DNA from: Limnanthes douglasii subsp. nivea
Lineage: Eukaryota; Streptophyta; Magnoliopsida; Brassicales; Limnanthaceae
DNA length: 64,000 nucleotides
Direction of reading: 5' to 3'
NCBI GenBank assembly: GCA_036936605.1
Contig: JAUPFV010000001.1
Location: 33,179,900-33,243,899, forward strand
The notes beneath the pieces were generated by a model. The model was not told where the DNA came from. It saw only the letters and a program-made list of their open reading frames with translations, and ran no database searches. The translations under genes and the position numbers were made by a program. Positions 32,398 through 54,981 of the stretch are shown piece by piece (within the stretch, counting starts at the first letter, position 1; each line of letters starts with the position of its first letter).

Positions 32398-32927
32398 GGG
32401 TTAAGTACCATTTAGTACTCAATACTCAAAGTAATTTCCACTTAAGACCCATATTTTGATATATCTCTAAGAAATGTCCGTTTTTGTGAAATATTTATTA
32501 TCTAAAACCCATTAATACCTTTTATACCCCTATTTAGTTATATAAAAGCTTTCACATTCGTATTTGACTTTTTTTTCTCTTTAAACTTTTATATGTGACT
32601 TTAACAGTGCACTACTATCGTAGGTAATTCTCCATTTTTAATCGATTTTTTGTTTTTTTGTTGATTTTGATTGTGTTTAGGTTAATTTCGCAGTTAGTTT
32701 TGTTGTTATAGGTTAGGATTTCGAGTTTTTTTGAAATTTTGTATCGCGTAACTGTTTAGGTTTTTCGATCTGTTTCTTTTTTTGTGCTTTTAGTATTCAT
32801 TTGTATTTTACGTTGTTAATGCAGTATATTGGTGGTATTAGCATTAGTTTTCGTTTATTTTCAGTTAGTGATTCAGTTTTTATAAGTTTCAGTCTGCACG
32901 TAACTGTTTTCTGTTTCTACGAAGCAG

Positions 32928-33145
32928 ATGCGCAACAAGTATTAAAAGCCTAGTTATAGTTGCAAAACGTGTATGTTTTTCTGGTTTTGTTGATGAAATA
33001 TATATTTTTTGTAGATGCGAAACGTTACCATTTTTGTTCTATGAAGATGCGAAACGTCAATGTTCTTGATATAGATGATGCGAAACATGTTTTATAGATA
33101 GATGCAAAACTCTTATATTGTTTGCTAATAATAGATGCGAAACCT
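32928..33145 (+). repeat. AGATGCGAAAC motif cluster 1
   Basis: About six plus-strand copies or near copies (AGATGCGCAAC, AGATGCGAAAC, AGATGCAAAAC) spaced about 30-85 bp, upstream of the transposase coding region. Confidence 0.85.
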
Positions 33146-33160
33146 TTGTCTAATGCAGGT

Positions 33161-34258
33161 ACGCGATGTCTAGTCGTAGGGATCTGCATTTTTAAACTAA
33201 ATGGGGAGCTTGCAATTTGTGACCTTGGTTTGTTTTCTGAGTTTGAAAATATTGTTAAATTTGTTTTAAGTAGATATGATACGTTGGTTCGGGGTAAATT
33301 TAAATTAAGATACTCTTGTGGTGATCTAGAAAATGTTATCTTAGGTTGTGATGGTGATTTAATTGCGTTGGTATCATTTGTTGATAGTTTGGGTATTTCA
33401 AGTGTTACTATTAAAGTTGAAGGCGATGTTGTTGTTGGTGATAATATTATAGAAACTGCTAAAATTATAGTTGAAGTTGTAACTGAAGATTTTGTTTGTG
33501 GAGAAACTGGTGAAACTTCTGATGTTAATGGTATTAGTCACAAGCATAAAGCACTTGCTACTGTTGGTTGGGTTAATGAAATTAGTGGTGTTGGGAAGGT
33601 GTTTCAAGATGGATCAGTAGGTTTAATATTAGCAGTTAGTCGGTTGGCTTTACAAAAAGGTTTTTCTTTTAAATATTTGCATAACAATAAACAAAGAGTA
33701 ACTCTTTATTGCATGAAAAATATTCAAAGGGTTGTCCTTGGAGACTTTATGCTAAGCAAGACACGTCTACTGGTCTTTTTGTTATTAAGAAGTATGTTGA
33801 AACTCATACATATGGGATTGGTTTTAACAAAGAAAATAGAAGGCATTTGTCATCTGATTTGATTGGGAATGAAATACGTGATTGTGTGAGGAGAAGAGTT
33901 GATGTTACAGCTACAAGCGTGAAATCATTTTTTAAAAATGATTACGGTTTAGATATTTCTTAACATGTTTCATGGCTTGCTCTAGAAATATCTAGGAGGG
34001 CTGTATATGGAGATAGAACAACTTCTTATAAACTTCTTAAAAATTATTTTAAAACATTGAAGGTTCTTGATAGCAGCACTGATTACATATTAGAGTATTC
34101 ATTGGAAACCAATGTGTTCAAACAATGTTTTGTAGCATTCGGGTCTTGCCTCTATGGTTTCAATTCACGTCCTCAAGTTTTATTTGTTGATGGTACTTTT
34201 TTAACAGGAAAATATAACGGAGTTTTGTTATCTGCTATAGCCAAAGATGGTAACAATG
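33161..34258 (+). pseudogene. MURA-like MULE transposase, N-terminal part
   Basis: Begins after a TGCAG acceptor-like site at about 33160; the true start codon is unclear. Residues encoded at about 33190-33400 resemble the N-terminal domain of MULE proteins (FKLNGELAICDLGLFSEFE). At about 33700-33820 lies the zinc-type DNA-binding block: YCM, a frameshift, then CPWRLYAKQD and FVIKKYVETHTYG (usual HTC is HTY). TAA at 33961-33963 interrupts; the frame resumes with LEISRRAVYGDRTTSYKLL. The first catalytic Asp lies in VLFVDGTFLTGKYNG (about 34180-34220), followed by LLSAIAKDGNN. The exon probably ends at 34258, where the donor reads ATAAGT in place of GTAAGT. The catalytic domain continues at 44924. 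Confidence 0.85.
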
Positions 34259-34352
34259 ATAAGTTTTAATTATATTTGAATAGATGTTATCTTTTAAATA
34301 TATAACAAATAGATAGATGCGAAACCTTCTGAATAAATAACGTGATAGATGC

Positions 34353-34680
34353 TGATGAGGGCGGAATTTACCAATATAAGTCATAAGGGTTTAATTGCAA
34401 TAAACGGTATTTGGTGTAGTTATCAAGGTGTTAAAAATCCCTCGAGGACCAATGTGTAAACGTGAAATTAATTAAGGGGCCTTATTAAATATATAATAAC
34501 GGCCCACTAAGAACTTAAACGGGTCCACCTTATTCTAGTGTAAAAGGTGACCCACTTGCCTGGTAAAAGGGTATTGAATATTATTTTATGACAATCCCCT
34601 TTCTCTCTCTATACTTTCTCTCTCTAGTCACATCTGGTTCAAGATCCAAAATATTCTCCCTAACAATTATTGACTCATCA
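34353..34680 (+). repeat. Tat-1 5' LTR
   Basis: 328 bp, TGATGAG...CTCATCA; contains CTAGTGTAAAAGG, the counterpart of a TATA-like CTAGTATAAAAGG in the 3' LTR. Confidence 0.95.
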
Positions 34681-34700
34681 TTGGCACCGTCTGTGGGAAC
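34681..34700 (+). promoter_or_regulatory. Primer-binding site of Tat-1
   Basis: TTGGCACCG-TCTGTGGGAAC abuts the 5' LTR. Similar-length sites follow the LTRs of the other two Tat copies. The tRNA was not identified. Confidence 0.7.
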
Positions 34701-34730
34701 GAGTGATACCGAAAATGAATCTTTTGCTCT

Positions 34731-36143
34731 TTGAAAATCACATTTTGCGGGATGAACATCGAAGCTGCGATAGAGAGGGTCGGTAGAGAAGTCGTCCGAG
34801 CCGTCTCAGGGTTGGAAGGCGAAGAAGCCCATGGTCGGGAACGACACGATTGGGGTCGGGACAAGCGGTCGACCATAATAATGACCCGAAAACAACTCCT
34901 TGATGATATTGCCAGGCTAAAAGAAGAGAGAGAGCGGGCATTGGACGAGAAAAGGGCCCGGGAAGGAAAGGGCAAGGAACCCCTCTTGGAAGATCGGGAG
35001 GTAGCCGACCATGATGTTGGCCCACGAATCGAAGCACGACCCGTTAGGTATTACCGAGACTCTCACCCCGATGACGAGCGAACCGCTAGGACTCGGCGGT
35101 ACCCGGAGAATCATCATGACACAACACTAGACTACCCCTCAGATGATTCGTCGGGCAGAGAGTATCTGCGTCGGGAAAGGGTCCAACGTACACAAAAGAA
35201 TCGTTCCCGACGCCTCCGAGGAATTCGGGCAGGCCCGCCAAAATATAAAAAGGGTAGCACCGACAAGCAGACCCCGGTATCCTTTGAGAAAGAAGAAATG
35301 CAAGCCGCCAGCCGCGAAGAGCGGGAAGCTTTGCCACCATTTCCATGGCAACCATCGAATAGTCAGAACCACGGTTACCGAACCAGTAGCCAGTTTATCA
35401 GCCCGGGAGTTGGCGAACTATATGGAGTTCGAACAGAAGGCCTCGGGGGAGGAGCGTTTGAGTTCGGGGTTAATTGGAGGGCATCCCCACTATCCGATGA
35501 GATATTAGCGGGACAACTCCCGAAGCGTTTCGACATTTCTAAACTAGAAAAATATGACGGAAAAATGGACCCGGATAATCACTTGGAGGCTTTCAAAAAC
35601 TTCATGTTAAGTTTCGACAACGATGACAAGCTCCTGTGTAGAGCTTTTTCCATGACCTTCAAGGACCGAGCATCTAAGTGGTACAACCGCTTACCGCAGG
35701 GTTGCATTCGGAACTTCGGGACGTTCTGGACGATGTTTAGGCAGCACTTTGTGGGAAGTAAGAGCTTCCGGGCCAACGGAGACACTATCATGAATTGCAG
35801 GCAGAAACTGGGGGAAAGCCTCAGAGAATATACTAGGCGATTCATCGACGCAAAGACCGACCTAGATCACTGCGAAGAGAACGTGGCCCTAACAACGTTT
35901 CGCTTGGGTCTGCTCCCGGGGCCAATGAAGCAAGCAGTGACAAAGAAACAAGCATTCACGTTTTCCGCACTTCTAGCACAGATAGAAAAGCAGATATTAA
36001 TCGAGGAGACAGAAGCGTCTGAGTTGGCAGCGCAGATTCAGCAAAGTGCCCAAGCGTTGGTAGTAATAAGGCAGGGCACCCGGTCGGATTACGCCAGGGC
36101 AGCCCAACCGGTCAGCACGATACACCCGAACCCCCCTGTGTGA
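34731..36143 (+). pseudogene. Tat-1 gag, N-terminal and capsid part
   Basis: An open frame of 470 codons starting at 34731 (a second Met at 34752 begins MNIEAAIERVGREVV). The N-terminal third is charged, Arg/Glu-rich and probably coiled coil (IARLKEERERALDEKRARE). The retrotransposon gag domain spans residues about 270-440: FDISKLEKYDGKMDPDNHL, ASKWYNRLPQG, FVGSKSFRANGDT, LREYTRRFIDAK. A TGA at 36141-36143 (a probable CGA-to-TGA change) ends the frame, but the same frame continues with the zinc knuckle and protease. It would form the particle capsid in an active element. Confidence 0.85.
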
Positions 36144-36206
36144 GCCAAGCCTTCAGCCCCAGCCGTTCAGAGACCGAAGCAAGCTAGTCAGACGACTTCA
36201 CAACCC

Positions 36207-37301
36207 ATGTCCAACAAATGGACACGACCTGCATACTTCGCGGACCTTACGGAGTGTGTAGCATCGATCTACGAAAAGACCAAGAAGAGCGGGATGTACC
36301 GAAGACCTTTCCCGATCCCAACACCTCGGGAGCAAAGGAATAACCGCTATTGCCGCTATCACGAGGACGTTGGGCACGATACAAAGGACTGCATTGCCTT
36401 GAAGAAAGAAATACAGATGCTCATAGAACACGGAAACCTTTTGGAGTATGTAAAGAAGGCGCAGCAGGGTACGGCCTCGAAAGAAGTCGCGATTGTACCA
36501 AAACCGGAAACCACCATGGCGATCTCAGAGGTAACCGACCAGTTCGATGTTTCCATTGAATACCTTGACCCCGAAGCAAACCGCAACATTATCGGGATCA
36601 TTGAGGAGGAAGCTGAGGAGAGCATCGGTAGTGTGCGAGGCCTTTGTGAATTTTTCGAATCCTTAACAATCTTTGGGGGAGATTCTATGGCAGGAGTTAC
36701 ACACTCATCCAGGAAAAGGCACATCGTCAACCTAACCACTCAGTTGGAGACTAGAACTTGCTTCCAAACCAGAAGCGTCCCTTCTCCGATTCTGCACTTC
36801 GACGACGACGACATGAGGGACATAGCCGGCCCTCATGAGGATGCCATTGTAATCGGGGCAGCCATTGCGGGAGAAGAGGTTCGGCGCATCTTGGTGGATA
36901 CCGGGAGTTCAGCCAATATCATCTTCGCGTCTACTTTTGCCAAGTTTAGAACACCGCCGGTGATTGCGCGGTCCGACCGAACCATTGTCAGGTTTACAGG
37001 ATCAGCAGCCGACGTTATAGGAGAGTTTGAGGGCGTAGTCCAGTTAGGCCGCGACCCTTTCGAGAAAGAGGTCACGGTTTTATTTGTGGTAGTGAACGCA
37101 CCGGCCTCCCACAACGCCATTTTTGGCCGGTCATGGATATCACGCATGCATGCGGTAACTTCTACAATCCATCAATGTTTAAAGTACGTGGTCGGAAATA
37201 ACGTAGGCGTGGTCCGGAGCAGCCAGAAAGCAGCACGAGAATGTTACCGAGCGGCGTTGGCACCTAAGAAAGACCAAGAGATGGTTCAAGCTCAAGAATA
37301 G
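36207..37301 (+). pseudogene. Tat-1 gag zinc knuckle and aspartic protease
   Basis: Same frame as the gag upstream. Zinc-knuckle-like NRYCRYHEDVGHDTKDC lies at about 36343-36393. The aspartic protease has ILVDTGSSANIIF (about 36890-36930) with its catalytic DTGSS intact, and NAIFGRSWISRMHAV (about 37110-37155). The frame ends at TAG 37299-37301, after which the same frame goes on into RT. In an active element this would be the central part of one gag-pol polyprotein. Confidence 0.85.
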
Positions 37302-37364
37302 CAATTAAGGGGGCTCCCCCCGGGATCGTTACCCGTCGATGATCCCCGGGAAGCTCCAAGCCTT

Positions 37365-40300
37365 TTGACAACAGACGAGGAATGCGAACAGTACCAATTC
37401 GCTGCGGGAAAATCTCTGCGGATCGGGGTATGCCTCTTGCCAACCCTAAGGGAGCAACTATTGATCCTCCTGCGGGAAAACCTAGACTTGTTCGCATGGT
37501 GCTCAGGAGATGTCACTGGGGTACCGAAATCTATCGCAGTTCACAAGCTAACCATCAACAGAATCGTCAGAACGATTTCCCAAAAGCGTCGGGCTTTTTC
37601 CCCAGAAAAGGCAAATGTGATCCTACGAGAAGTTGAGAGAATGACCAGCATCGGTCATGTCAAGGAGGCGAGATACTCGTTATGGATTTCTAATCCCGTT
37701 CTGGTCAAAAAGAAAAACGGGAAATGGAGAATGTGTGTGGATTTTACCGACCTTAACCGGGCATGCCCGAAGGATCCATTCCCAATGCCGAGAATCGACC
37801 AGTTGGTAGATTCGACTTCGGGTAACAAATTGCTGTCGTTTATATGCCGGTTACAATCAGATCAAATTACACTCTGCGGACCAGGAAAATACCACGTTCA
37901 TCGCAGGCCGGGGACTATATTACTACAAGGTGATGCCCTTCCGGCTAAAAAATACTAGCGCGATGTACCAAAGACTAGTTAACAGAACATTCGCGGGTAG
38001 ATCGGGAGGAATATGGAGGTGTACATCGATGATATGTTGGTCAAAAGCAGCACAGATATAGCCCACCTTGCTGACCTCAGGGAAACCTTTGATAACTTAC
38101 GAGGGATAAATCTCAAACTTAACCCGGAAAAATGCTCTTTTGGGGTCCGGTCAGGAAAGTTCTTAGGATTCTTCGTCAGTGAGAAAGGGATTGAAGCAGA
38201 TCCTATCCAGCTTCGAGCTCTAACCGATATGACTCCGCCCCGAAGCATCAAGGAAGTCCAGATCCTAACTGGGCGTCTGGCCGCCCTAAATCGATTCATT
38301 TCTCGCTCATCTGATAAGTGCGCACCGTTTTTTCAAGTCTTACGACAAGCGAAAATTTTTGCATGGACCCCCGAATGTAATGAGGCATTCTTGGGGATCA
38401 AACGATACCTATCGTCCCCGAACCTCCTAACGAAGCCTACCGCGGGCGAGATACTCTTCCTTTACATCGCACGGACTTCGCAGTCAGTGCAGCTCTGATC
38501 AGCGAATCAGGACCGGCTCCTACAACGGTCTACTTTGTGAGCAAAAGCTTGCTGAATGCGGAAACTCGGTATTTAAAGTTAGAAAAAATGGCACTTGCCC
38601 TGGTGACAGCAGCGCAGAAGATGCGTCCGTACTTTCAAGCCCACCCTATCATCGTCCGAACATCATTTCCACTCAAATACGTTTTCCAGCGACCAGATAT
38701 GTCCGGGAGAATATCCAAATGGTCGGTAGAGCTAGGGGACTTCGACATCGACTTTGAACCACGAACGGCTATCAAAGGCCAGGTCTTGGCTGATTTTTTA
38801 GTAGAGTTCCATTCCGAACGACCCGAGCAGGAGTTATCTCCCCGAGAAACCACGCTAGGCGAATGGGTTGTCCGAACCGATGGGGGGCGAACGTCAGTGG
38901 CTGTGGAGCAGGAATACAAATCGTAACCCCTTCGGGCATTAGCATGCTCCAAGCCGTCCGATTTGGTTTCCATACTTCAAACAACGAAGCAGAATATGAG
39001 GCTGCTCTGGCAGGATTGCGGTTGGCACATGTGTGCGGGGCGAAGCGGGTGCGCCTCATAAGCGATTCCCAACTTGTAATAACCCAAGCTTCAGGGAGTA
39101 CAGAGGCTCGGAAAGAACATCTGGTACAATACCTAGCAGCACTCAGGGTTCTAGCTGCTTCATTTGACAAGATCACCTATGAACATGTCCCGAGAAGTGA
39201 AAACACGGCTGCGGATTCTTTGGCAGCGATTTCCTGCTCTAGCAACTACCCTTGGGTGACAGAACAAGAAAGTCCCTCTATTATCAAACGCCATGAGTTG
39301 GACAACCAACCTGAAATCGCATGCCAGATCTCTTCGATAGCAACCTCGGATTGGCGGCGGGACATTATCGCCTTTCTAGCTGAGGGTCGGCTCCCCGATG
39401 ACAACGCTTCAGCACGTAAAGTACGCAACAAGGCTCGGGGGTACATCCTTTTAGGGGATGTACTATACAAGAAATCCTTTAGCCGACCCCTGCTTCGATG
39501 CTTAAGGGTCCATGAATCTCAAGTAATTGTGTCCGAACTACATGATGGTGAGGGCGCAGCGCACTGCGGATACAAGGCTTTAATTAGGAGAATTCTCCTC
39601 GCAGGATTCTATTGGCCGACGATAACGGCAGATGCACGACTCATAGTTAAAACCTGCGATACGTGTCAACGGTTCGGAAACGCAATAAACGTCCCTGCGT
39701 CTCCCCTAGAATCCATATCCGAAGGGATGCCATTTGACCGATGGGGAATCGACCTCGTCGGACCATTACCAATGGCGTCGGGAGGAAGACAGACGATCGT
39801 CGTAGCAGTGGATTATTTCTCCAAATGGGTCGAAGCCGAACCTCTATCCGCCACCAAAACCAAAGATATCATCAAATTCAGCTGGGCTAACATATGTTGT
39901 CAGTTCGGGGTACCACAGAGGCTAACTATAGATAATGGGCCGCAGTTTGACAGCGTAGAAATGAAAGAATTCTGCACCACTCATAAGATCCGACAATGCT
40001 TCTCTACTCTTTTCCATCCTCAAGCGAACGGGCAGGTCGAAGTAACCAACCGAACCATTTTGGATGGCCTCAGAAAGAACCTCGAGGGAAAGGCCGGAAA
40101 ATGGCCTAATACCTGCAAGAAGTACTATGGGATTACCGAACCACACCCCGGACAGCTACTCAAGAGTCACCTTACGCTTTAGTATACGGTATGGACGCGG
40201 TTACCCCTGCGGAATTCATTTTTCCATCTTTCAGGGTCGGTACTTATGAGGAGGAAACAAACGACGACAGCCGACGACTTGAGCTCGACCTCATAGAAGA

Positions 40301-40586
40301 GAAGCGCAATCGCGCTCAATTGAACTCTTTGCACTATCAGACCCTGATGAGAAGTCGATATGCTTCCAAAGTCCGCCGCCGGGAGTTTAAGGTCGGAGAC
40401 AAGGTTTTGCGGCGCGTCTTTCTTCACACAAAAGATAAAAGCCTCGGCAAGCTCGCCCCGAATTGGGAAGGACCCTATGAAATTGTCGAAAAAATCAAGA
40501 ACGGGACATACCGCCTGCAGAATAGGCTCGGACATCTTTTGAGGCTACCGTGGAATATTGAACACTTAAAATTGTATTTAGAATAG
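37365..40586 (+). pseudogene. Tat-1 RT, RNase H, extra RNase H and integrase
   Basis: RT begins WCSGDVTGVPK (about 37497) and runs through KWRMCVDFTDLNRACPKD. A deletion/frameshift near 37845 and another near 38010 precede the intact catalytic EVYIDDMLVKSS (38016-38050). RNase H lies at about 38330-38800, with frameshifts near 38480. The extra RNase H starts VVRTDGG (38867), shifts frame near 38890, then runs NNEAEYEAALAGLRLAH, LISDSQLVITQ and HVPRSENTAADSLAAI. Integrase (39520-40586) has a zinc region (AHCGYKAL...CDTCQRF), catalytic DRWGIDLVGPLP, TIDNGPQFDS and HPQANGQVEVTNR, another frameshift near 40110-40190, and the GPY/F-type end NWEGPYEIVEK. Catalytic residues are kept but the frame is broken at least four times. 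Confidence 0.88.
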
Positions 40587-41225
40587 TGGTGAATTTGTAT
40601 CCAAATTATATTTCACGTTGTTTCCAATTGTAACGGTCGGGGATGCACTCTTTCCTACCTCGGTGGCGCGAGAAGGTTTTAATGAGGCATCGAAAAAACC
40701 CGACCACCCGATTACGTTAATCAAAAATTTCTTTTGCCTTCCAAATATTGAAGTGTTACGACCTTGGACAGCTGACGAGCTGGACATCGTCCGTTCCTAT
40801 TAATATCAATGGATCTACATATATAGTTTTCCCGATCCTCGAACAGAACCTTAATGGGTTTTTCGGTTTTTACTGATCTACATATATACTTTAACGGACC
40901 CTCAAGGAAATGTTTCAATATTACTTTAATCTTCAGAGCCTAGGTTTTTTTCAAAGTTCCCGAACTGTTTCACAACTTACGATTCCCGATCCTATCAGAC
41001 CTTTTCAACATTACGTTCGAACTTCGACTCTTTCGGGTTTTACACAGGTAACAATGTCTGAGAGGATATAACCAGAAAACTTGATATATTAATAAGGGAC
41101 CCCGTAGCCCCCAAAAACAGAGTTAAAGATGTTCATCAGAAATAACGACAGAGGGGCCCGCGGCCCCCAAAGAGTTACAAAAATAAGTAAACAAAAACAA
41201 AAAAAAAACAAGCACAACTCCCGGA
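40587..41225. other. Non-coding region between Tat-1 integrase and antisense ORF
   Basis: No open frame with recognisable content. Contains repeated TTTCGGTTTTTAC / GATCTACATATATA words typical of a Tat 3' untranslated stretch. Confidence 0.5.
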
Positions 41226-43803
41226 TCACTCGTCCTCGTCCTCATTCTCTTCATCCTCCTCAGCATCGTCGGATTCTTCCTCTCCACACTCGACCCCCTC
41301 GGGCCGGTCCTTCTCTGGCACGTCTAACCATATCGACCCGAGGTGAAGGTCTGGGAAGCGGTTGTGGAACGACAGCACGTACGCGGCTTTGGCATCGGCA
41401 ATTTCCTTCTCCGACCACTTCCTACACCGATTGGTGAAGGCGACGTTCGAAGATTTTAACTTTTGGACCTCTATAGCCAAAGCAGCGGCGCGGTCTTCCG
41501 CGGCTTTCTTTGCCACCTCCGCGGCCCTCATCGCCTCCTCCACAGCTGTCTTCGCCTTTGTCGCGACACGTTCGGCTTCAGCAATCCGACCCTCCGCCAA
41601 CGCCTGAGCCGCCTTGGAAGTTTCCACCTCCGAAGTCAGACTAACGATCTTTGCCTCCGCTGAGACTAACTGCTGACTTAGCTCGTTCGCCCGACGCTCT
41701 TTCATGGCCGCCGGTACAAGCAAGTTATACAAAGACAAAGCTAGACCGTCCGATCCCCACAGCGGGAACGTGTGCGGACTACCGAGCATCGACAACACAG
41801 GGAACTTCGTACCACTCGACGAGGCTGCAGTTGGGTTCGACGCCTGGGGGGGCTCGCCGTCATCCGAAATTTCCACAACGTCCGCCGTTGGAATACTTTG
41901 GGCACTACCGACCTGATCAGGCAGCTTCGGTCCTACAGTGCCAACCCCCGCGCCGACAACTGGTTTGCTCTCTTTCCTCGAATGCTTGGATTTCTTCACC
42001 TTAGTCCCCTCCGCATAAGCACGACCTTTCCTCTTTTGCACTGGAGCCCGGTCCTGGTTCGCCTCCGTTCCTTCAGGTCACCAACCCCCTCAGCTCCGGT
42101 TTCCTTCTCTCCCCCCTCGTCATCTGACTTCGGGCGCTTGCTAGGCGCCTTGTTGCGTTTGGGTAGATACAATATTGACCCAGGAGTGCCGTAACTAGCA
42201 ATCACGTCCTCCAAGTTCGGGGGCTGTCGCAGCTGCTCGATGGTGAGAACCTCGGATGAGCAACGCCAGAGGTTACTCATAAATAAGTTCGTATCTATGA
42301 AGGTGCTATGCATAGCCCGACCCCAGTGCGTCCGGGCGTAGCTTTTCAGCACCTCGAAAGTGGCCTCGGCAGCTTTCGAGTAGTCATTCTTCAGCCCTTG
42401 TAACCAGTCCTTCGACACTGCACAAAGGGTCGGTAAATATATATATATATATATAACAGAGTGGTATCATCATGGACCCAGGTCCGCAGCAACTGCCTCT
42501 TATTCTCCGAATTGTAGGGAAGACCGTTCTCCCAGCACCCGCTCAGAAATACGAACCGATGCTTCCAGCCTTTGTCCCCCTCCAAGAAATCATTAACAAT
42601 CTTCCATTTGTTGGGAAGAGTAGAAGAACGGGGATTTGGAGCCTTGGACATACCCGACATAGCAATATATTCTTCCATCGGCATAACCCGACCTGAAAGA
42701 CGAGAAGCCATGATATAAGACATTAGAGTATACCAGGCGTTCAGCGTCAGCTGCGACAGGCAGATTTGGAGGGTGCGGAAGTAAAGCGCAATCTCGGGGT
42801 CTAAAGGGAAGCGCAGCCTCCAGTTGAACAGCTCGGTAAACACCACAATCTCCCTAGATCGGACATGAACGGGGGTCTCCCCGGGAAGCGGGAACCGAAC
42901 ATTGACACATTCGGGAATTCCCCAGCGGATCAGCAGATCTTTATAATCAGACTCAGGGAAGTAGAGGTACTTCCCCTCGTAAAGAGAAACGACGTCTTTC
43001 GTCCAAAGCCAGCTGAAATACTTAGTAGTGATGGCAGCCTCAACTTCTTCGGGCAAGGGATCGTCAGGAGGGTTAGCTACGTTGCCAGCAGCAGCAACAC
43101 AGACCTCCGCATGCGCAACGTCTGCTTCTGATTCTCCCACTTCAGGGTCTGGAGCCTGATCAGAACTTCGGGCAGTAGCGGCATCAGGGTCTGATGATCG
43201 GACCCGAGAGGTGGAGGCCTCGGTTATATCACCCGAAAAAGCCCGATGAGCCGCTTCCACTTCCTCGGGCGTCAGCTGGCGTTTGGGCAAAACTAAAAAA
43301 GTGACCGCAGTGTTAATACCGGTCCGATACCCTCGAATCGAGGGCGTAAGTTGAACCATTTCAGGATCGTTACCTCCTACGGAAGACGTAGAAGGACCAT
43401 CTTCTCCCATGATCAAGAACTTGGATTTTCGAGCGCGTCGGGGCATGAACATAGGAGGAGGAGCGTGTGAGTTGACGGGCAATAGGGTCGGATCGTTCGA
43501 CCCGACTACAGGGGAATGAGAAGAGCTACCACTGGAAGAAAGGGCAACGGTTTCTGGAGAAAGACTAGCCTCTGGAGATGGAGAAACAGGAGGGTCGGGT
43601 AGGAGGAAGGATTCTGCAGGGATCGGGGTGGCTAAGACAGGGTCGTGAGGAAGCGGAGCGGGAATAAAAGGTTTGGAGTTAGATCCCCAGATCAGACCAG
43701 CACGTCGGTATTCCTCTGCTCGATCTCCGATGCTAGACCACTCTTCAAAACTCCACTCAGGTTTTTTCTTTTTTGGTGTTTGCTTCGGGTATCTGGGTTT
43801 CAT
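41226..43803 (-). pseudogene. Tat-1 antisense ORF (gypsy-type 'transposase_28'-like protein)
   Basis: Minus strand, opposite to gag-pol. Start MKPRYPKQTPKKKK at 43803. A Pro/Ser-rich region is followed by a conserved core (about 42480-43060): FSWLWTKDVVSLYEGKYLYF, FTELFNWRLRFPLDPEIALY, LTLNAWYTLMSYIMASRLS, KWKIVNDFLEGDKGWKHRF. An intron with a TA run probably separates 42440-42470 from the next exon, which starts after TTTGTGCAG (about 42419-42427). A frameshift near 42000-42040 leads to an Ala/Glu-rich coiled coil (EAERVATKAKTAVEEAMRAA) and an acidic tail ending EDEENEDEDE. Antisense ORFs of this type are known in plant Tat elements; their function is not known. It looks nearly intact apart from the frameshift. 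Confidence 0.8.
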
Positions 43804-43916
43804 AAAACAAACATTCCAGGACAAAAAAGGGTCTGATGAGCTCTCTCTCTCTAGAAATGATCTGACAGCACTTCCTCTCTCTATAATGCCTCTGAGAGAA
43901 ACCAAGGATTGTTGAG

Positions 43917-43924
43917 TATTTATA
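43917..43924 (-). promoter_or_regulatory. TATA box of the Tat-1 antisense gene
   Basis: Minus strand CCTATAAATACTC, about 115 bp upstream of the start codon at 43803: a normal promoter spacing. Confidence 0.6.
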
Positions 43925-44393
43925 GGAAAGGTTGAAAGATCGGAGAATATCAATCGACAAAAGCACAGCGGGAAGACGAAGAGTCTCTCTAAGAGCCTAG
44001 TCTGGAAAAGACGTGTCCCATGAGCTGATGACACGTGTTGACCACCGTCTGGCAAAGGGTTTACCTAAGCCCTCCCTTATGAACCCACTGGTGATATGGG
44101 CCGTCACAACCGCGTTCGATAAGAAAAACCAGCCCATCACAGGGGCCCGGGCTGAAAACTCGAAAAAAAAACGCGGGAATCAACCCGGATTGGAGCTTCG
44201 AACGTCGGGAAAGAAAGTCCAGCAGAGCCCGAATTTCGAATGAAGGTCAGATCGTTACGAACATTGTCGGTTAGTGACCGACGCAAGAGGAAAAAGAACA
44301 GATTCGCTCAAGGCAATTAGCCCGAAGAACATGGGAGATCGGACAACAGGTGCAAACTCGGCAGTGAGTCTCCGCTCCTGATACTCCCGAAGA

Positions 44394-44405
44394 CTGGGGG
44401 GCTAC
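44394..44405 (+). promoter_or_regulatory. Polypurine tract of Tat-1
   Basis: The TGGGGGGCTAC run directly before the 3' LTR, the expected place for plus-strand priming. Confidence 0.6.
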
Positions 44406-44733
44406 TGATGAGGGCGGAATTTACCAATATAAGTCATAAGGGTTTAATTGCAATAAACGGTATTTGGTGTGGTTATCAAGGTGTTAAAAGTCCCTCGAGG
44501 ACCAATGTGTAAACGTGAAATTAATTAAGGGGCCTTATTAAATATGTAATAACGGCCCACTAAGAACTTAAACGGGTCCACCTTATTCTAGTATAAAAGG
44601 TGACCCACTTGCCTGGTAAAAGGGTATTGAATATTATTTTATGACAATCCCCTTTCTCTCTCTATACTTTCTCTCTCTAGTCACATCTGGTTCAAGATCC
44701 AAAATATTCTCCCTAACAATTATTGACTCATCA
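44406..44733 (+). repeat. Tat-1 3' LTR
   Basis: 328 bp; differs from the 5' LTR at four positions that I could see, all transitions. Confidence 0.95.
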
Positions 44734-44843
44734 GATGCGACATGCGTAATGAATGATTAATTTGCTAGATGCAAAACCCATTATGATAACATGATAGATG
44801 CAAAACATATATAGTATATTATTATTGAGATAGATACGAAACC
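44734..44843 (+). repeat. AGATGCGAAAC motif cluster 2 (transposase intron, right of Tat-1)
   Basis: Copies AGATGCGACAT (split by Tat-1), AGATGCAAAAC twice, AGATACGAAAC; one more copy lies left of Tat-1 at about 34316. Confidence 0.85.
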
Positions 44844-44923
44844 TATATATTAGTAAGTGGTAGTTGGGAAACCTCTTATAATGAGTCATTTATACTATTT
44901 TTTGTCTAATATATTGGTTGCAG

Positions 44924-45961
44924 GTATTTTCCCTGTTGCTTTTAGTATTGTTTTGTCTGAAGATACTAAGAATTGGATATGGTTTTTGGAGATGTTGAAA
45001 CCTTATCTTTTGGATCGCGAAATGACATTTATTAGTGATCGTCATCTAGGTATTGTTACCGTTGTATCAGCTATATTTCCAAATTGCCATCATGGATACT
45101 GTCTTTATTATCTTATGAATAATTTGAGGCATTGTTTAAAGGCTACACCGACGATATTTAAGGAGAATATGGTAAAACTGTTTAAAAGATATGCATATGC
45201 TTCTAATCAAAATTTGTTTAATCAATATATGGATGAATTACTTAAGCAGGGAGGTGAGAAGATTCAAAGTTTTTTAAAAAATTTATCTTCTGAGAAATAT
45301 GCTTGTGCTTTTTTCAAAGGCAAGAGGTATGGTTCCATGACATCTACTCCAGCTGAATCTTTTAAGAACCAAGTAAAATAATTTTATGGTTTGCCTATAC
45401 TGGAGTTAATTGATAGGATTAGAGTTTTAGAAATGAGTCAAATTTCGAGACGTTTTGGTGATGCTGAACGTTGGACTAGTATTTTGTGTCCTGAATTTGA
45501 TGAAAATTTTAAAGCTAATGTTGAAGAAGGTCGTCCATGGATAGTTCATTCGTCTACTCCTCTTTTGCATGAAGTGTTTTGTGATCATGTTATGGTTATT
45601 GATCTTAGTGTACGTCACTTTTCTTGTGGTTTGTGGCAACATGAGTGTTTCCCTTGTTCTTATGCTGTAGCTGCTATATTTTATATAGATGCAGATCCTA
45701 TGGAATATGTTGAGCCATGCTATTTTTTTAAGCTGTTATAAGGCAACATATTCATATGGTATAGCTGCATTTACTACTTTTGGTCAAGGATCCACTTCAA
45801 CAACTTCTCCAGATCTACTTCCTCCAGTTTTAAAAAGGAGAGCTGGATGACCTAAGAAGAAAAAAATTCCATCTAAAGGAGAATTAAGTATTCGTAAGAT
45901 AACGTGTTCTTGCTGTCATAAATCTGGTCATAACAGACGCACATGTGTAGACATTTTGTAA
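44924..45961 (+). pseudogene. MURA-like MULE transposase, C-terminal part
   Basis: Starts after acceptor TTGCAG (44923) with IFPVAFSIVLSEDTKNWIW, the continuation of the DDE domain split from 34258. The second catalytic Asp is in TFISDRHLGI (about 45027-45055) and the Glu in TSTPAESFKN (about 45343-45370). A SWIM-type zinc region (HFSCGLWQHECFPCSYAV, about 45617-45670) has His changed to Tyr. After a frameshift near 45740 come a basic segment (RRAG-stop-PKKKKIPS) and a CCHC knuckle (CSCCHKSGHNRRTC, about 45908-45950), ending TAA at 45959-45961. Stops at 45379 and about 45849 (CGA to TGA) disable it. All canonical MULE domains are still recognisable. Confidence 0.88.
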
Positions 45962-46044
45962 GATGAATCAATTTTTTTAATACTTTTAGTTTTATTTGAG
46001 ATGTGTTTATCATAATAACAGTAGATTGGGAACATTTAAATGGA

Positions 46045-46300
46045 TGATAGATGCGAAACGTTTTGTTATATGGAAACGCTAGATGCGAAACGTTTTGTTA
46101 TATAGACAAGCTAGATGCAAAATATGTAATAACCAACATGATGGGTTGTGATAGACGCGACACACGATTTACAAGATTTACTGAAGTCGATGTTAAACGA
46201 TTGATAAATTCGAAACAGCTTACACACAAATACACTAATTTAATAGTTGCGGAACCTTGGATAATTAAATATATTTTGTAATGATAGTTGCAAAACGTTG
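46045..46300 (+). repeat. AGATGCGAAAC motif cluster 3
   Basis: About six copies downstream of the transposase stop: AGATGCGAAACGTTTTG twice, then AGATGCAAAAT, AGACGCGACAC, GTTGCGGAACC, AGTTGCAAAAC. Confidence 0.85.
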
Positions 46301-46624: not shown

Positions 46625-46995
46625 CCTAACCATCAGTCAGAGTCATATGCGTTTTCTTCAGAGTCACCTTCCTCTGAATCTTCATCATTTTCTTTATCTT
46701 CTTCTTCTTTGTCTTCATCTTCAGTATCGTAATCGTCTTCCATCTGGTCCATTTTCCTCTCTTTTTTAGGAGGACAGAAATAGGATCCTCATCATCTTCT
46801 AAATAAACATCTTTGGTATAAGCATCTTCATAAAAAGAACCAAAACTTTCACCAGAATTGTCGTCTGAAAGCTCGTCTGTCGTTGTATGTTTCCACTATT
46901 CCCTGGCCTCGTCTCGGTAACGAGTGGGAGAACTGATATCACTATAACAGGGACCATCGTCTGAAGAATAGTTAAAATATAGAATTTTTTCAAAC
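46625..46995 (-). pseudogene. Short acidic ORF inside the MULE
   Basis: The minus strand encodes a strongly acidic product: SSDDGPCYSDISSPTRYRDE and DNSGESFGSFYEDAYTKD (about 46980-46800), a basic PPKKERK link after a frameshift near 46785, then MDQMEDDYDTEDEDKEEEDK ending at TGA near 46636. It has an in-frame stop and the frameshift. I recognise no family. Position between transposase and Ulp1-like gene suggests a third element-encoded protein, comparable only in placement to accessory ORFs of other MULEs. Confidence 0.5.
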
Positions 46996-47409
46996 CAAGT
47001 TTTTAAGAAGTGAAAAGTTTTAGTAGATTTTTAGTGAGAATGAAGGGAGTTTTTTGTGTGTTGAGAACTGTGAAGAGTTAAGAGGTATTTTATAGAGGTA
47101 GCTAAAGTGTTATAAGAAGGTGAAATGTTTAAAGATTAAGCATAAATAAGTTATTGTTGCGCCTTTTGATATTATTTAGATTTGCAATTAATGTAACGTA
47201 ATAATTGGAATCTATTACTTGTCAAGTCTAGAAAGTAAAGATCAAATCATTGTAAAGCCAATAGTTTGATTTTTGAATTTTGAAACAGTTTAGCGAAAGA
47301 AAAAACAATAGAAAATTATACCATAAACAATAAAGAAAAAACAATAGAAAAATTATACCATAAACAATAGATAAATAATTTAGTAGAAATCACTCATTAG
47401 AAGAGAAAA

Positions 47410-48285: not shown

Positions 48286-48636
48286 AGATGTTAGACAGTT
48301 TACATGTAAAAAAATATTACAAATATCACAAAAAGTAAAACATATATTAGTAATCATCGTCCCAATATTTGTTAGTGTTCATGTCATTAAGAAACATGTA
48401 GAATATTTATGCTCTTCTTAATGGTGCAATTTCAGAAGTTTTGTGATGGTTAAGTTTCTCATGCAAAATATAATCTCTGAAGTAATCACGGACCATTACT
48501 CCGCAATCAAGTGATCCAGATATTTGTTTAGTAATCTCTATTGGACAAACTATCTTTATTGGTTCTTCTGATTATAAAATGTTTTTGTTTTGAAGGTATG
48601 CAATCTGTAAATTAATAAACATACAAATAAATCAGA

Positions 48637-48637
<1 letters not shown>

Positions 48638-48680
<43 letters not shown>
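48638..48680. repeat. (TA)n microsatellite
   Basis: About 21 AT repeats within an intron of the Ulp1-like gene. Confidence 0.95.
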
Positions 48681-48682
<2 letters not shown>

Positions 48683-49449
48683 TATGAAATTATTATAAAA
48701 GAGAGACACTTACTAATCTTTCTGCAGTTTTTCTTGTTGGATCTGGACGTTTTGGTATTGGGTTAATGTTCAACATCTATTACCAATAATGTCCAATGGT
48801 TAACATTCCCAGGTCTAGCTTCTGTTAGAAGCGGAACGAAGATTAAAACTTCTGTGATGTCTCGTAGCTTATCGTCAACATATAATGTTACATCCATATT
48901 TCGGTTCAGCGGATGCTAAATTGGAGGAGTAATAATTAGAAACATTTATGTTTATAAATAAAAAAATGTCGTAAAAGTATTTTATTGTTACCAATACGCT
49001 TCCAGATAAGTATTTGAAAGTTGTGTTCTTTAAGGTTGATATATATATATAACCATCAATTATCTGTTTTGTCAAAAGTGGAAACCAATAGTTTGTTAAC
49101 ATATGATTGATGAAGAAATTGAAACAAAGTAAATTTGAATTCAACTTTTACCGTAGAGTCGATTTCAGCTTGGTACTAACAAAAATATTTGAGCTTGGTA
49201 CATCTGGACATGACGATCCTGTTGGATCATGATTGTTTTCTCCTTTTTCAATCAGCTCTAATTTGTAGTATTCTTTTATGTCAATAGCAGTTGTAATTTT
49301 GTTTGTAAATGGCCACTCTTTTCTAGTAATTTCCATGTTTCGTTGTATAATATTGACTTGATGTTGAGTAGGATTTACAATTAGTTCAAATGAAGGACCT
49401 TCATCCAAATCTCTCTGCACAAATGGGAAATAACTGAAACTGTTAGAGG

Positions 49450-50185
49450 AAATAGATGCGAAACTTTCAGAAATATAAAGGATTGGAAAGAAGGGGAACT
49501 AAGCTAGATACGAAACATTCAGAAAATAGAAACAGTAGATGCGAAACATTCAGGAAATAGAAACGATAGATGCGAAACGCTTAGTAAATAAGAAATAAGA
49601 GAAACATTGCTAGATGCGAAACGTACAGTAATATAATAAAGGGGAAATAAGGGAAAGCAAGCTAGATGCGAAACGTTCAGAAATAGAAATGATAGATGCG
49701 AAACAGTAGTAAATGAGAAATAAGGAAAACAATGGTAGATGCAAAACGTACAGTAATATCATAGAAGGGAAATAAGGGAAAGCCAAGCTAGATGCGAAAC
49801 TTTCAAAAATAAATTGATAGATGCGAAAAATTTAGAAATATAATAGAGAGGAAATTAGCTTAAGCCAAGGTAGATGCGAAACGTACAGTAAATGAGAAAG
49901 TATAAAAATATGCTAGATGCGAAACGTACAGTAAATGAGAAAGTAGGAAAATTTGCTAGATGCGAAATAATTAAGTATGACATGTGTGAATGTTTCACTT
50001 ACTTTTTTCTTTTGTATGTCATTTTCAATTCTTATAATTTATTTCTCAATTGCTGGGTCTAAGTCACTGAGTTGTGGCGTTTAGTTTTCTGGGACTTCTG
50101 ATGCGTTTTCCTTAACAAAACAGAAAACTGTACATTAGATGTGAAACAGGAGTAACAGTAATACACAAGTATGATAGATGCGAGA
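49450..50185 (+). repeat. AGATGCGAAAC motif cluster 5
   Basis: About fifteen plus-strand copies at roughly 30-50 bp spacing, most followed by GTACAGTAA or TTCAGAAAT blocks, inside an intron of the Ulp1-like gene. Confidence 0.9.
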
Positions 50186-51484
50186 CTTGTATCTTTAAAT
50201 ACAAAACCAACTTTCATTTAAACACCAAAGGCAGATAAACATATAAATACAGATAATATTACAGAATTTAAGCCAAACAAGAAGATAATACAAAAGTTTT
50301 TTCAAAATATGTTTTGTTAATTTTAGGTTATCTGTATCACCTCTTTGTCCACAACATCTTCCTTTGTCACTTTAGATTCTTCAAGAACATCCTTTTCCAC
50401 TCCAGATGCTTCAGCAACACTCTTGTCCTTTTTAAATACTACAACTACTGTGCTTGACGTTTCAGATATTTCAACAATTGATTCTTTAGCAGTAGGAACA
50501 ACAGCATTAGTATTTCTATCTTGTTCTTCCATAACAATATTGAGATTTTGATCTTCTGTAACGTTAACAAGAATGGAGGGATCATCTTCAGCAACAACAA
50601 CTTCAGGTACTTCAACAATAGCAATTTCAGATACTTCAACAACTTCAGGTACTTTAGCAACTTCATTAGTAATTTCAACTGCGGGATTGTCTTTCTTTTC
50701 AAACCCAAAATTACTAATAATAATGGCATCAACTTGCTTTTCCATTCCAACTTCAAAAGGAGTAGAATTCTCCTTTTCTATAGCAACAATATCTTCAGAA
50801 TTAACAATATCAACATTAATAGGGGACTCACTATTAACAGTGGTATGAACTTGGTTTTCCACCTCAACATGTCTGTTTGTAATAACAAAAACATCCTTAG
50901 ATGTAGTAGCAACAACATGAAATTCAACATCAGCAACATGGTCATTTTCATCAGTAACAACAACTTCATGATTCTGTTTTTGCAAATCATCTTCACTTTT
51001 TTCTTATTGTGGAGGTTGAAGCTTGTCTTCCACAACAATATTTGGTGTTTATTTTATTTTATTTGGTGATTGGTGGGCTTGATCATTTAATCTCTTTCTT
51101 ATTGAATAAGTTGAACCAAAAGTTTTTGGTTGCTGTTCAGTTGTTTCCATGTTTAGCTTCAACATAGGCAGTTTAAGTGTGTTTTGTATTTCAACCTCAT
51201 TGTCTATCTCTGCATCCGCTTTCATTTGTGTAATGATCTTCTCATTTTCTTCGAGTTTCTTTTCAGTTCATCAATTTGTTGTTGAAATTATCGTCATTCC
51301 ATCTCACTTTTTTCTCCTTTTTCAAATGTTGTTAAGTCGAAGCTCTGGCTAGAGACTGGGTCAGTGTGAGGTTTGTCTGCGTCTAATGGTGGTGTTGTTG
51401 TTAGGGATGTGGGTGGGTGTGGGGTTGTGGTTGGCGCTGGGGCTGGGGCTATTGTGTTAACTTGCTGTAAAATAATAAGCAATG

Positions 51485-51835
51485 TAAAGATGGATGCAAA
51501 ACATTTGACATCTGAAGATAAATAATAGATGCGGAATCTTAACATTCATAAACCGAGATGTGAAATGTTGAAGTTAAATAATTGATAGATGCGAAATGTC
51601 AATAAATGATAGATGTGGAACTAAAAAGAAATGTTAGATGCGGAACGTGTACATACAGATAGATGGGAACGTGTACATAAAGATAGATGCAAAATATGAA
51701 ACAAAATAATAGATGTAGAACTTTTAACAAAATGATAGATGAGAAACGTTAATTACAAGTAGGTGTGAAACTTTCAGTTATAATGATGCTAGATGCGCAC
51801 CTATCTGTAATGATGATACTAGATGCGGAATTTAT
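51485..51835 (+). repeat. AGATGCGAAAC motif cluster 6
   Basis: About thirteen diverged copies (AGATGCGGAAC, AGATGTGGAAC, AGATGAGAAAC, AGATGCAAAAT) about 25-35 bp apart, in an intron of the Ulp1-like gene. Confidence 0.85.
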
Positions 51836-52919
51836 AGCAAATATGATAAAATAGTATATTTTTTACCTTTTCTCTTGCTTGTAATTTCTTCAACCTTCTG
51901 TTTTCTGTTTTGAGATGGTACAATCTGTCTGAAATGTTTATTTTAGAACTCTTTTGTATTGTTTTTTCAGGTTTCTTCAGATTCCTAAGAATTTGTGATG
52001 TTGTATTCACCTTTCTTGCAATTGGGGCACCAACTGTATCCACTGGTAAAGTTTTCTCTTTCAGGTTCTGTACTGGTTCTTGGAACTTTTTGGCGTGGTT
52101 GAACTATGTATTGGTCAAGTGTTTTTTCGCTATCAGTAAAATCTGTTGCAACTTGTTCTTGTAGAGTATCCCAATGCAAACCATCTTCATCTTCGTTGAG
52201 GTTTACTTGTTCTATTGGTGGAACAACATTATTTTCTTGAGGAGCATCAATATTTTCTTCATCTATTTGGAATTCTCCTCCAAATTCTTTTTCTTCTTCT
52301 GTCAGCTTCAATCGCTCTTCAAGAATCTATAAAATTGTTAAAATGTTAGAGTAAACAGATATATATGTAAAATTTGAAACAGATTAAAAAACATATCGTA
52401 AGTATACCTGTTCATTTGTTACGTTATTTATGGCTTCAACCAAATTTAAATCTATTTTGCGTTCAATACCCAACCATTTGAAGCATCTAGGTAACCTGTC
52501 TTCAATTTCAATATCTTGACATAAAGTTGTGTGTTCCATGATGAATGGCTACATATTAACAATAATTTAGATATCATTTTTTGAGTAAATATTTAATATG
52601 AAATGGAATGAAGAAAAATACTAACCAGTAAAAGGGCAACACATCCAACTACTTTTCCAGGTTTAATTTCATGACAAGCTATTATAGAATTCATCAACTT
52701 TTCTCGGATTGCTTCAGCCCAATTGTAGTTGTTTATGTTATCTAGGTGTTCTACATAATAGACCACCGTTGAAGCTAGTACATATCCAGATGTAGAGAAA
52801 AACAAGGTAGAACACTAGCAATATAAAGAGTATGACAACATATTCTATTGCCTCTTGTCCAGATGTTTTTACTGCTATCTTTATTGCATCCTACAAACAA
52901 GCAAAACCATTTCCTAAAT

Positions 52920-53205
52920 TTGATAGATGCGAAACTTTAGTAATTATATTTAGATAGATGTGAAACCTATGTAAACGGTAATAATAGATGCGAAACGGGT
53001 ACTAATTTTACTAGATGCAGAACGAGTTTAATTTGGAACAGGCCTAATGTGATAAATGCGAAAACGGATTTAATCATAGTAGATGCAGAACGTTGTTCAA
53101 TATGAAAGAGGCCTAACGTGATAGATGCGATACCTAGTTTAATATGAAACTGTTTAAAGAGATAAATGCGTAACCTTATGAGCAGAAGTAGTAGATGAGA
53201 AACAA
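52920..53205 (+). repeat. AGATGCGAAAC motif cluster 7
   Basis: About nine copies (AGATGCGAAAC, AGATGCAGAAC, AAATGCGAAAA, AGATGCGATAC) in an intron of the Ulp1-like gene. Confidence 0.85.
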
Positions 53206-53754
53206 CTTATGCAAGTATTAAAACAGTCAGAAAATGTGAGAAAGATGGAATTTGCGAACCTTTATAAATTTGTTAGTAATCGGTCTTGCTCTACTTCCAT
53301 CAACTTTTCTTGATGTCTTCTCAAGAAAATACTTCTTTATTATCCTTGATTTTTCTTCATCTTCTAATCCTGAAAATTTAATTTCAAAACTTTTTGCTTG
53401 AAGTGGCATATATTCATTGCCATGTTTTAAACCAAAAAATGATCTTTATATCATGGTTTGTAAGCTGTAAAAACTTTCCCCCAATTTAAATGCTTCTTAT
53501 TCATCATCATATGTCATCGCAATCTGTTCAATTACATCCCAGTGTTTTTTGTATGCAGTCTTCTTTGTCCGAAGATCATAGGTTGTTTTTAAAAGTGAGT
53601 AAAATGGTGTCTTCTTTGCTTCTTCTATATGTTCTTGCCTCACCTTTGTCTCTTCCATTTGTTTTAACAGTGCAAAGAGGCCGGATGTGTAGAAACATAT
53701 TTTTGGTGCCATTTTCACCTGTAAAAGCAATAAAAGAGAAAATTATATTAGATT

Positions 53755-54325
53755 TGATAGATGTGAAATGTACAGAGATATATAATTTAAGGAATCTGGT
53801 TTGATGCGAAACCTATACAGATCAATAATATAAAATTTTTGCTAGATGCGAAACTCTACATAAAATCTGCAAATAAGAGAAAGATGATAGTTGCGAAACC
53901 TGTGGAAATATCAATGCACATAAAAGATTGGTAGATGCGAAACACACGGACATCTATAACTAGAAGACTCTAGTAGATGCGAAACACAATGAAATCTATA
54001 ACCAGTAGACTCTAGTAGATGCGAAACCTATATAAAAAACCTGCAATTACCTAAATTCTATTTGCGAAACCTATACAACATCAGTAACATTTAGTAATGC
54101 TTTCTGTAACTGAAATTACATTTGATTAAGCAGTTTCCACAATGGATAGTTGCGAAACCTGTGGAAATATCTATGCACATAAAAGATTAGTAGATGCGAA
54201 ACACAAGGACATTTATAACTAGAAGACTCTAGTAGATGCAAAACATAATGAAATCTATAACCAGTAGACTCTAGTAGATGCGAAACCTATATAAAAGACA
54301 TGCAATTACCTAAATTCTATCTGCG
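53755..54325 (+). repeat. AGATGCGAAAC motif cluster 8 (first intron)
   Basis: About thirteen copies, several within a 259-bp tandem duplication, in the first intron of the Ulp1-like gene. Confidence 0.9.
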
Positions 54326-54404
54326 AAACCTATACAACAACAGTAACATTTAGTAATGTTTTATGTAATTGAAATTACATTTTAATTAAATAGTTTCTAC
54401 AACG
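53886..54404 (+). repeat. 259-bp tandem duplication carrying motif copies
   Basis: 53886-54144 and 54145-54404 are adjacent near-identical copies, each starting GATAGTTGCGAAACCTGTGG and holding five motif copies. Confidence 0.9.
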
Positions 54405-54405
54405 T

Positions 54406-54433
54406 CTCGTATCTCGCTTTAGCGAGACACGAG
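54406..54433. repeat. Short hairpin CTCGTATCTCGC-TTTA-GCGAGACACGAG
   Basis: A 12-bp stem with one mismatch and a TTTA loop, directly after the 259-bp duplication. Confidence 0.85.
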
Positions 54434-54981
54434 TAAGCATTGTTCGTCAGTGGAAAACAGACTCGAAACAATGTGTTCGAACCCTAGAATTTTCTGTAAT
54501 CGTAATTGTAAACTAACTGGATAATTGAAATCGTAAAACAGCTTTAAACTTACTGGTTCACCGTTGTTTGTCTTCATTGATACTCTGATACTCTAACTGA
54601 AGTCTTGATCGGATTTGATCACGTTATCGGAGTCGAACAGTTCAGTCAATTCGTTGATCAATTTGTTTGAAACGATCGTAGTAGTTACCGCTGTTGTTTC
54701 TCCGGAGTAGGTAGCGTGTTGATTCGCTGGAGTTGAACGGAGTTAAATGATCGTTGGGAGAGGGAGAGGAGAGATGCTCTCTATTGAATTGAAATTTTTC
54801 TCATTTTATTAATTTTTTTTAGAAAACCCGAAAAATATTTCAATAAGAAATTATTTACAAGACTTTAGAGATATATCCGGAATCCAAACACTATTTTCTA
54901 AAATAATGAAGAAGATGAATAAAGGTGCAGTTGATTACAAATGTATTTTTATAAACTCAATTTCAATTAAAAAAATTAATT

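Follow-up and report, generated by a model that had tools for sequence, protein, structure and literature searches.

A stretch of 64,000 nucleotides from the genome of Limnanthes douglasii subsp. nivea (contig JAUPFV010000001.1, positions 33,179,900 to 33,243,899; hereafter the window) contains a large Mutator-like element (MULE) that carries dozens of copies of one 12-bp word, AGATGCGAAAC, nearly all of them in non-coding DNA. The motif is short, dense, restricted to one orientation, non-coding and specific to the transposon family, which are the sequence features that characterize the VANC anti-silencing systems of Arabidopsis. The element is of the autonomous type, and the copy in the window is dead. 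We consider it probable that its non-coding DNA is a platform of the VANC kind, in which the motifs would serve as landing sites for a DNA-binding protein encoded by the element, with the product of a gene antisense to the transposase as the likeliest candidate.

Motif arrays in the window copy

Both strands of the window were scanned for AGATGCGAAAC with up to two mismatches, and 102 matches were found, compared with 15.6 ± 4.0 (maximum 28) in 100 dinucleotide shuffles. Counts within the element refer to the interval 32398-54940 minus a nested long terminal repeat (LTR) retrotransposon. In this DNA, the plus strand holds 27 exact copies, 54 copies at up to one mismatch and 81 at up to two, and the corresponding numbers for the minus strand are 0, 0 and 1. 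The initial annotation had described about 75 copies, all on the plus strand, in eight clusters and mostly spaced by 25-50 bp. Its strand assignment holds apart from that single minus-strand match, the count rises to 81, and the clusters are instead ten of at least three copies plus small ones, with spacings within clusters of 24-55 bp and one of 88 bp.

Equal density of the word in unrelated DNA would have spoken against the initial proposal, and this was not observed. At up to one mismatch, no copy is present elsewhere in the window or in the flanks of two relatives with both ends, EB (0 in 2.5 kb of flank, versus 51 sense and 0 antisense inside) and ED (0 in 12.7 kb, versus 21 sense and 0 antisense). 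At two mismatches, the window outside the MULE yields 14 matches on the plus strand and 5 on the minus strand, and 11 of those 14 belong to an array of a second word, AGATGCGAATT, at 11.3-12.0 kb. The motif chosen by the initial annotation also emerges when none is preset, since the commonest 9-mers of the non-coding DNA, (AT)n aside, are fragments of it. One of these, GATGCGAAA, occurs 34 times against an expectation of 0.05, its reverse complement is absent, and some words further down the list of 40 overlap the motif or fall in its flanks. The core, TAGATGCGAAAC, is 12 bp long and has sharp edges, its last base carrying 1.30 bits of information and the position just beyond it 0.06. Selection by match raises the information of the motif columns, and the comparisons between copies described below are independent of that selection. 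With regard to CpG decay, positions 6-7 of the 81 copies read CG in 60 cases, CA in 12, TG in 6 and otherwise in 3, an excess over other positions too modest to be taken as a sign of such decay.

Annotated or probable exons, whose limits were drawn partly by eye, make up 5,805 of the 12,164 bp (48% of the element). They hold none of the 27 exact copies (binomial P = 2e-8), none of the 54 at up to one mismatch (P = 6e-16) and one of the 81 at up to two (P = 1e-21), so that the earlier claim that the motif skips the exons of both genes stands with one exception at the loosest threshold. The copies lie in long introns, gene flanks and intergenic space, and they are missing from introns of 77 and 81 bp and, close to where the antisense gene becomes Ulp1-like, from two further stretches (162 and 236 bp). 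Placement in introns and flanks would also suit sites for a host factor or a role at the RNA level, such as splicing, polyadenylation or the production of small interfering RNAs. However, the motif keeps to one strand despite opposed genes, such that it would appear in the RNA of one gene and as its complement in the RNA of the other, and we regard an explanation of this kind as quite improbable.

The motif in relatives of the element

The host genome (1.78 Gb in 633 contigs) was searched for motif pairs, defined as two exact motifs 10-40 bp apart, with the reversed pattern as the control. The search returned 4,307 pairs (2,316 forward and 1,991 reverse), and the control pattern returned none. 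Twenty stretches of 10 kb on contig C1, two of them neighbours of others, were then fetched from the first 100 places listed. The transposase is present in eight, and all eight carry the motif in the sense orientation, with 171 sense and 0 antisense copies at up to one mismatch. At two mismatches the counts are 252 and 12, and the shuffle rate of the window would by itself predict about 10 antisense matches. Ten loci have coding matches to the window proteins, and these matches contain none of 196 motifs at up to one mismatch and 7 of 318 at two (both strands). Exact pairs were also encountered in viral (2) and prokaryote (19) collections; with motif counts made on all 21, these were taken as chance occurrences and not as relatives. 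In the viral locus L001, the only one read for open reading frames (ORFs), the pairs lie inside ORFs resembling pentapeptide repeats, so that the DNA word spells a protein repeat. A second viral locus, L002, has exact motif pairs too.

Because these first loci had been found through the motif, a sample blind to it was drawn from the transposase matches. It comprises seven stretches of 2.5 kb spread from the second to the last of a ranked 150, which are the scored portion of 14,963 candidates and have identities of 64-92%, the window itself aside. Sense motifs occupy the transposase intron in all seven and also lie downstream in six, and the whole stretches hold 57 sense and 0 antisense copies at up to one mismatch and 81 and 0 at up to two. 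The initial annotation had named family members that lack the motif while retaining all ORFs as a finding that would count against its proposal, and none of the seven loci is without the motif. Several transposase exons among the matches listed are open, with 367 residues free of stops. As a separate observation, seven transposase matches at G000:C223:17244561-17257833 lie on one strand with a spacing of about 2.1 kb, an apparent tandem amplification of a transposase-bearing unit.

Arrays also exist apart from the transposase. Fourteen of the motif-fetched loci carry arrays with no transposase match, five of these loci are only 3 kb long, and one (L043) has a match to the antisense gene 3 kb away. 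Of these 14 loci, 12 have a 5' end region in common with the large elements, and 4 have the 3' end in common with them on the same strand. This retention of arrays, mostly together with the 5' end region, could be explained if the motifs were sites for the transposase itself or for a linked activator, such as TnpA of En/Spm, that serves transposition or promoter control. The same idea gains from the observation that motif orientation tracks the transposase strand in 15 of 15 transposase-bearing loci. However, the copies are spread through deep introns and intergenic DNA along about 10 kb of the element instead of gathering at its ends, and the arrays of EB lie far from both of its ends, whereas TnpA sites are subterminal and occur in both orientations. 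Overall, sites for the transposition machinery appear unlikely.

Conservation of the motif bears on another possibility, namely that the arrays are minisatellites grown by tandem slippage that was neutral and tolerated only outside exons. When the window copy and its relatives (EA to EG) were aligned, divergence across all ordered pairs was 0.099 for motifs, 0.199 for spacers, 0.154 for other non-coding DNA and 0.129 for exons. Pairs that include EC, EF or EG gave 0.09-0.21 for motifs (mostly 0.10-0.13, with the top value for EC-ED) versus 0.23-0.36 for spacers. In the closest copies (window, EA and EB), motifs and spacers diverge alike, at about 0.06-0.10, which is the expectation for neutral decay of dead copies. 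Since array registers can mislead alignments, the comparison was repeated on ungapped 36-bp stretches with a fixed register, and the motif again diverged less (0.087) than its flanks (0.142). The motif was the less diverged part in 201 of 344 such comparisons, the more diverged in 88 and tied in 55; the 344 share copies and are not independent.

Several observations agree with a neutral origin. Tandem structure is partly present in many clusters, the similarity of 21% of 139 nearby spacer pairs is above the 95th percentile of shuffles (5% expected), a 26-bp unit dominates the array-only loci, and closely related copies show the similar motif and spacer divergence noted above. Nevertheless, most spacer pairs are unlike, with a flank identity of 0.36 compared to 0.33 from composition, and to 0.83 for the motif, a value raised by match selection. 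The lower divergence of the motif in the register-fixed comparison is likewise at odds with slippage, as is the recurrence of one consensus, TAGATGCGAAAC, in all 24 stretches tabulated (nine pieces of eight elements bearing the transposase or the antisense gene, 14 array-only loci, and L040). Neutral slippage is therefore disfavoured, and we give it very little credence.

Spacing was considered as a further feature. In the window, spacings of about 31-32, 42-43 and 52-53 bp are the most frequent, and 10 clusters are in phase at 10.5 bp (mean 0.52, P = 5e-5). Helical phasing was rejected as a general rule: once spacers are deduplicated, P ranges from 0.25 to 2e-5 depending on the cut-off, the relative EC does not share the phase (-0.29), and in 15 further loci (L040 and the 14 with arrays only) units of 26 bp prevail, with 53 of 143 spacings and a phase measure of -0.16. 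A helical periodicity has reportedly been noted for VANC motifs.

Anatomy of the element and of an apparent motif-shifted relative

The features of the large element and of a small one nearby are collected in Table 1. The window transposase, as a spliced read-through, is of the MULE-type DDE class, with a match to PF10551 (5.5e-16) above the cut-off and one to DBD_Tnp_Mut (0.00033) below its own. Both the transposase and the antisense gene of this copy are broken by stops or frameshifts. The nested retrotransposon landed inside a motif copy, as indicated by its 5-bp target-site duplication (TSD). It contains a gag domain, is by inference of the Gypsy type, and is young, with LTRs of 329 bp that differ by 4 mismatches, all transitions. 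The initial annotation had counted a separate acidic ORF; if the one at 50.3-51.0 kb was meant, a reading by eye makes it a probable middle exon belonging to the Ulp1-like gene.

Table 1. Features of the large MULE and of the small element in the window
Feature	Position	Strand	Basis or remark
MULE copy, defective	32398..54755	+	left end GGGTTAAGTACC common to relatives; right end lost
Motif cluster, 7 copies, directly upstream of transposase start	32926..33143	+	motif scan
Transposase exon 1, with stop and frameshift	33167..34266	+	ORF reading; PF10551 and DBD_Tnp_Mut on spliced read-through
Transposase intron, interrupted by retrotransposon; motifs at 34315 and 44733-44872	34267..44923	+	same motif-bearing intron in relatives
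Nested LTR retrotransposon	34352..44733	+	LTRs 34352-34680 and 44405-44733, TSD GATGC
Transposase exon 2, in-frame stops	44924..45958	+	SWIM-like stretch and CCHC knuckle by eye
Motif cluster, 7 copies, downstream of transposase	46049..46296	+	motif scan
Small acidic ORF, role unassigned	46633..46970	-	ORF reading
Three motif clusters, small ORF to antisense gene	47413-47533, 47865-47939, 48179-48282	+	motif scan
Antisense gene, multi-exon, defective	48407..53712	-	exon reading by eye as one gene
Antisense gene N-terminus, plant-mobile-domain-like	53712-52408	-	weak PMD match
Antisense gene middle exons	52326-50002	-	exon reading by eye
Antisense gene end, Ulp1/C48-like	49414-48407	-	exon reading; C48 in relative EC
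Motif cluster, 13 copies, large intron of antisense gene	49454..49968	+	motif scan
Motif pair, intron of antisense gene	50137..50186	+	motif scan
Motif cluster, 11 copies, intron of antisense gene	51492..51831	+	motif scan
Motif cluster, 9 copies, intron of antisense gene	52925..53203	+	motif scan
Motif cluster, 13 copies including 259-bp tandem duplication, upstream of antisense gene	53759..54329	+	motif scan
Small non-autonomous MULE, 1,257 bp	11174..12430	+	TSD TTAAGATTA at 11165-11173 and 12431-12439

The relatives also define the ends. Homology to the window copy stops at about 54755 for EB and about 54731 for ED, and both extend some 200 bp further to a right end of their own; the left boundary first proposed for the element agrees with the relatives, and the right boundary at 54940 does not. 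EB (12,481 bp) and ED (7,299 bp), each missing part of the transposase, are flanked by the exact 9-bp TSDs AAATTTTTT and TTAAATTTT, respectively. The window copy, having lost its right end, yielded no TSD and no terminal repeats, and with the initially annotated right end its terminal similarity does not exceed shuffles. Where exact ends were available, the first and last 40 bp were compared against 1000 shuffles. Terminal inverted repeats (TIRs) are not above shuffles in EB and L035 (733 and 257 as good), and weak ones are present in ED (6 as good), L045 (0) and the small element (0). Among 10 array-only loci, L035 and L045 have exact 9-bp TSDs, L024 has one of 8 bp, and none was found in the other seven, whose ends were partly guessed. 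Assignment to the MULEs, which have TSDs of 8-11 bp, rests on the DDE transposase and the 9-bp TSDs of EB, ED and the small element. TIRs that are weak or missing are a feature of the VANDAL or non-TIR MULEs.

The small element carries 17 copies of a shifted motif, AGATGCGAATT (up to one mismatch), all on the plus strand and in 26/41-bp units, and no AGATGCGAAAC at up to one mismatch. The 8-mer GATGCGAA occurs 50 times in the window, always on the plus strand, and the large element holds 34 of these copies, the small one 15 and the remaining DNA 1. Beside the small array lies a module of about 140 bp (12083-12249), and homologous sequence with 69-86% identity is located beside or within the arrays of all 14 array-only loci, with at least two copies in 13 of them. 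Among the nine pieces bearing the transposase or the antisense gene, EE alone has this module. Since the small element is homologous to the array-only loci, related elements end the motif in either AAAC or AATT, and this is one example of a motif that varies between related elements. From these sequence comparisons, the small element appears to be related to the array-only loci and to carry a shifted form of their motif. The module also contains GGTTCGAA, which we take to resemble a tRNA B box. Elsewhere in the window, reverse transcriptase, RVT_3 and zf-RVT domains are scattered over pieces at positions 4669-10816, which are probably a non-LTR retrotransposon, and a gag-like ORF lies on the other strand.

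The antisense gene and known anti-silencing systems

The gene with the Ulp1/C48-like end lies antisense to the transposase in all six transposase-bearing loci where part of it is visible. In the window copy, its N-terminus matches the plant mobile domain (PMD) at 0.0029, below the Pfam cut-off, and its Ulp1-like end has no Pfam match, C48 included. Five of nine antisense-gene translations from relatives, some cut by eye, were scanned for domains. PMD reaches 1e-4 in ED, again below the cut-off, and is not found in EG; Peptidase_C48 is above its cut-off in EC (2.1e-6, 28.2 bits versus 20.7) and below it in EB (0.021) and EF (0.024). The element proteins have no credible match among solved structures and none in NCBIfam. 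A search of 5.8 billion protein sequences, among which plant proteins are seemingly scarce, gave no match for the antisense product and one for the window transposase. A single-sequence fold of exon E1 (pLDDT 40.5) was too low in confidence for use.

Because the anatomy matches the VANC literature except for the DUF1985 and DUF287 domains, the likely binder of the arrays is the product of the antisense gene or some other protein that intact copies encode. Such a protein might count array density and would act in trans, removing or blocking silencing marks, specifically DNA methylation, over its cognate copies in the manner of VANC21 on VANDAL21 and VANC6 on VANDAL6. The AGATGCGAATT array could then mark a lineage that has, or is moving toward, a different specificity. 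A more particular version, which we put forward only tentatively, is that the specificity protein is a fusion of PMD and an Ulp1 protease, lacks DUF1985 and DUF287, and reads a 12-bp motif with a central CpG, with a specificity that is changing (AGATGCGAAAC versus AGATGCGAATT in homologous elements). If this is true, the central CpG means that binding could itself sense methylation.

Certain observations weigh against a VANC-like platform. PMD stays below the Pfam cut-off throughout; of the three relatives scanned for C48, one exceeds the cut-off, and the window copy does not reach it. DUF1985 and DUF287 were not detected in these damaged copies up to E = 1 or, in one scan, 10. Stops interrupt every antisense-gene translation printed, leaving no intact candidate binder among them. 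The most distant relative sampled, L059, keeps one motif copy at up to one mismatch and five at two. Also, the motif contains a CpG and exceeds the motifs of VANC21 and VANC6 in length. The initial proposal of a VANDAL-like system is partly supported: it agrees with the strand and non-coding placement of the motif, its presence across the family (7 of 7), the loci without transposase, conservation above the flanks and an antisense gene of the Ulp1 type, and fails on the VANC domains.

Experiments in Arabidopsis have established how transposons can counter silencing in a sequence-specific way. The Limnanthes genome, where motif pairs number in the thousands, transposase matches at least 150 and motif variants two, would offer a second setting in which to test the coevolution of protein and site. 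Pairs of motif and protein could also become tools for targeted DNA methylation loss.

VANC21 binds dense arrays of YAGTATTAY, all with the same orientation, in introns, intergenic DNA and terminal non-coding DNA, and the element becomes demethylated; the VANC6 motifs are AGTTGTCC/AGTTGTAC, and the named domains of the Arabidopsis VANC proteins are DUF1985 and/or DUF287 (Hosaka 2017, PMC5735166). These non-coding regions are also the targets of RNA-directed DNA methylation (Sasaki 2023). The element described here resembles VANDAL21/VANC21 and VANDAL6/VANC6 in being a MULE with degenerate TIRs and a gene besides the transposase, in its short and dense motif with one orientation in introns, intergenic and terminal non-coding DNA, in tandem-repeat turnover, and in having related families with different motifs. 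It differs in its motif, TAGATGCGAAAC, and in having a PMD-like region and C48 in place of DUF1985/DUF287.

Closer parallels exist for the antisense gene. According to a 2026 review citing Sasaki 2022, an Ulp1 domain is present in some VANC genes, which are conserved across eudicots and act on relatives that bear the motif, and KI-MULEs have an ULP domain opposite to mudrA and no TIRs (PMC2528002). The Ulp1-carrying VANC genes (KAONASHI/KIU, PMC13317346, PMC2528002) share with the Limnanthes element an Ulp1-type domain opposite to the transposase and weak or absent TIRs; host, motif and sequence are different, and the domain is above the cut-off in one relative and not in the window copy. Antisense PMD genes occur in several plant MULE groups (PMC6446971). 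MULE-Solanaceae_1 and others among these have 9-bp TSDs, no TIR, a SWIM-type transposase and antisense PMD, a likeness by description; motif arrays go unmentioned for them in the accessible text of that paper. A literature search with the motif words gave no transposon paper, judged by title, among the matches listed. Overall, the kind of system is known, and the motif word and its shifted relative are new to us.

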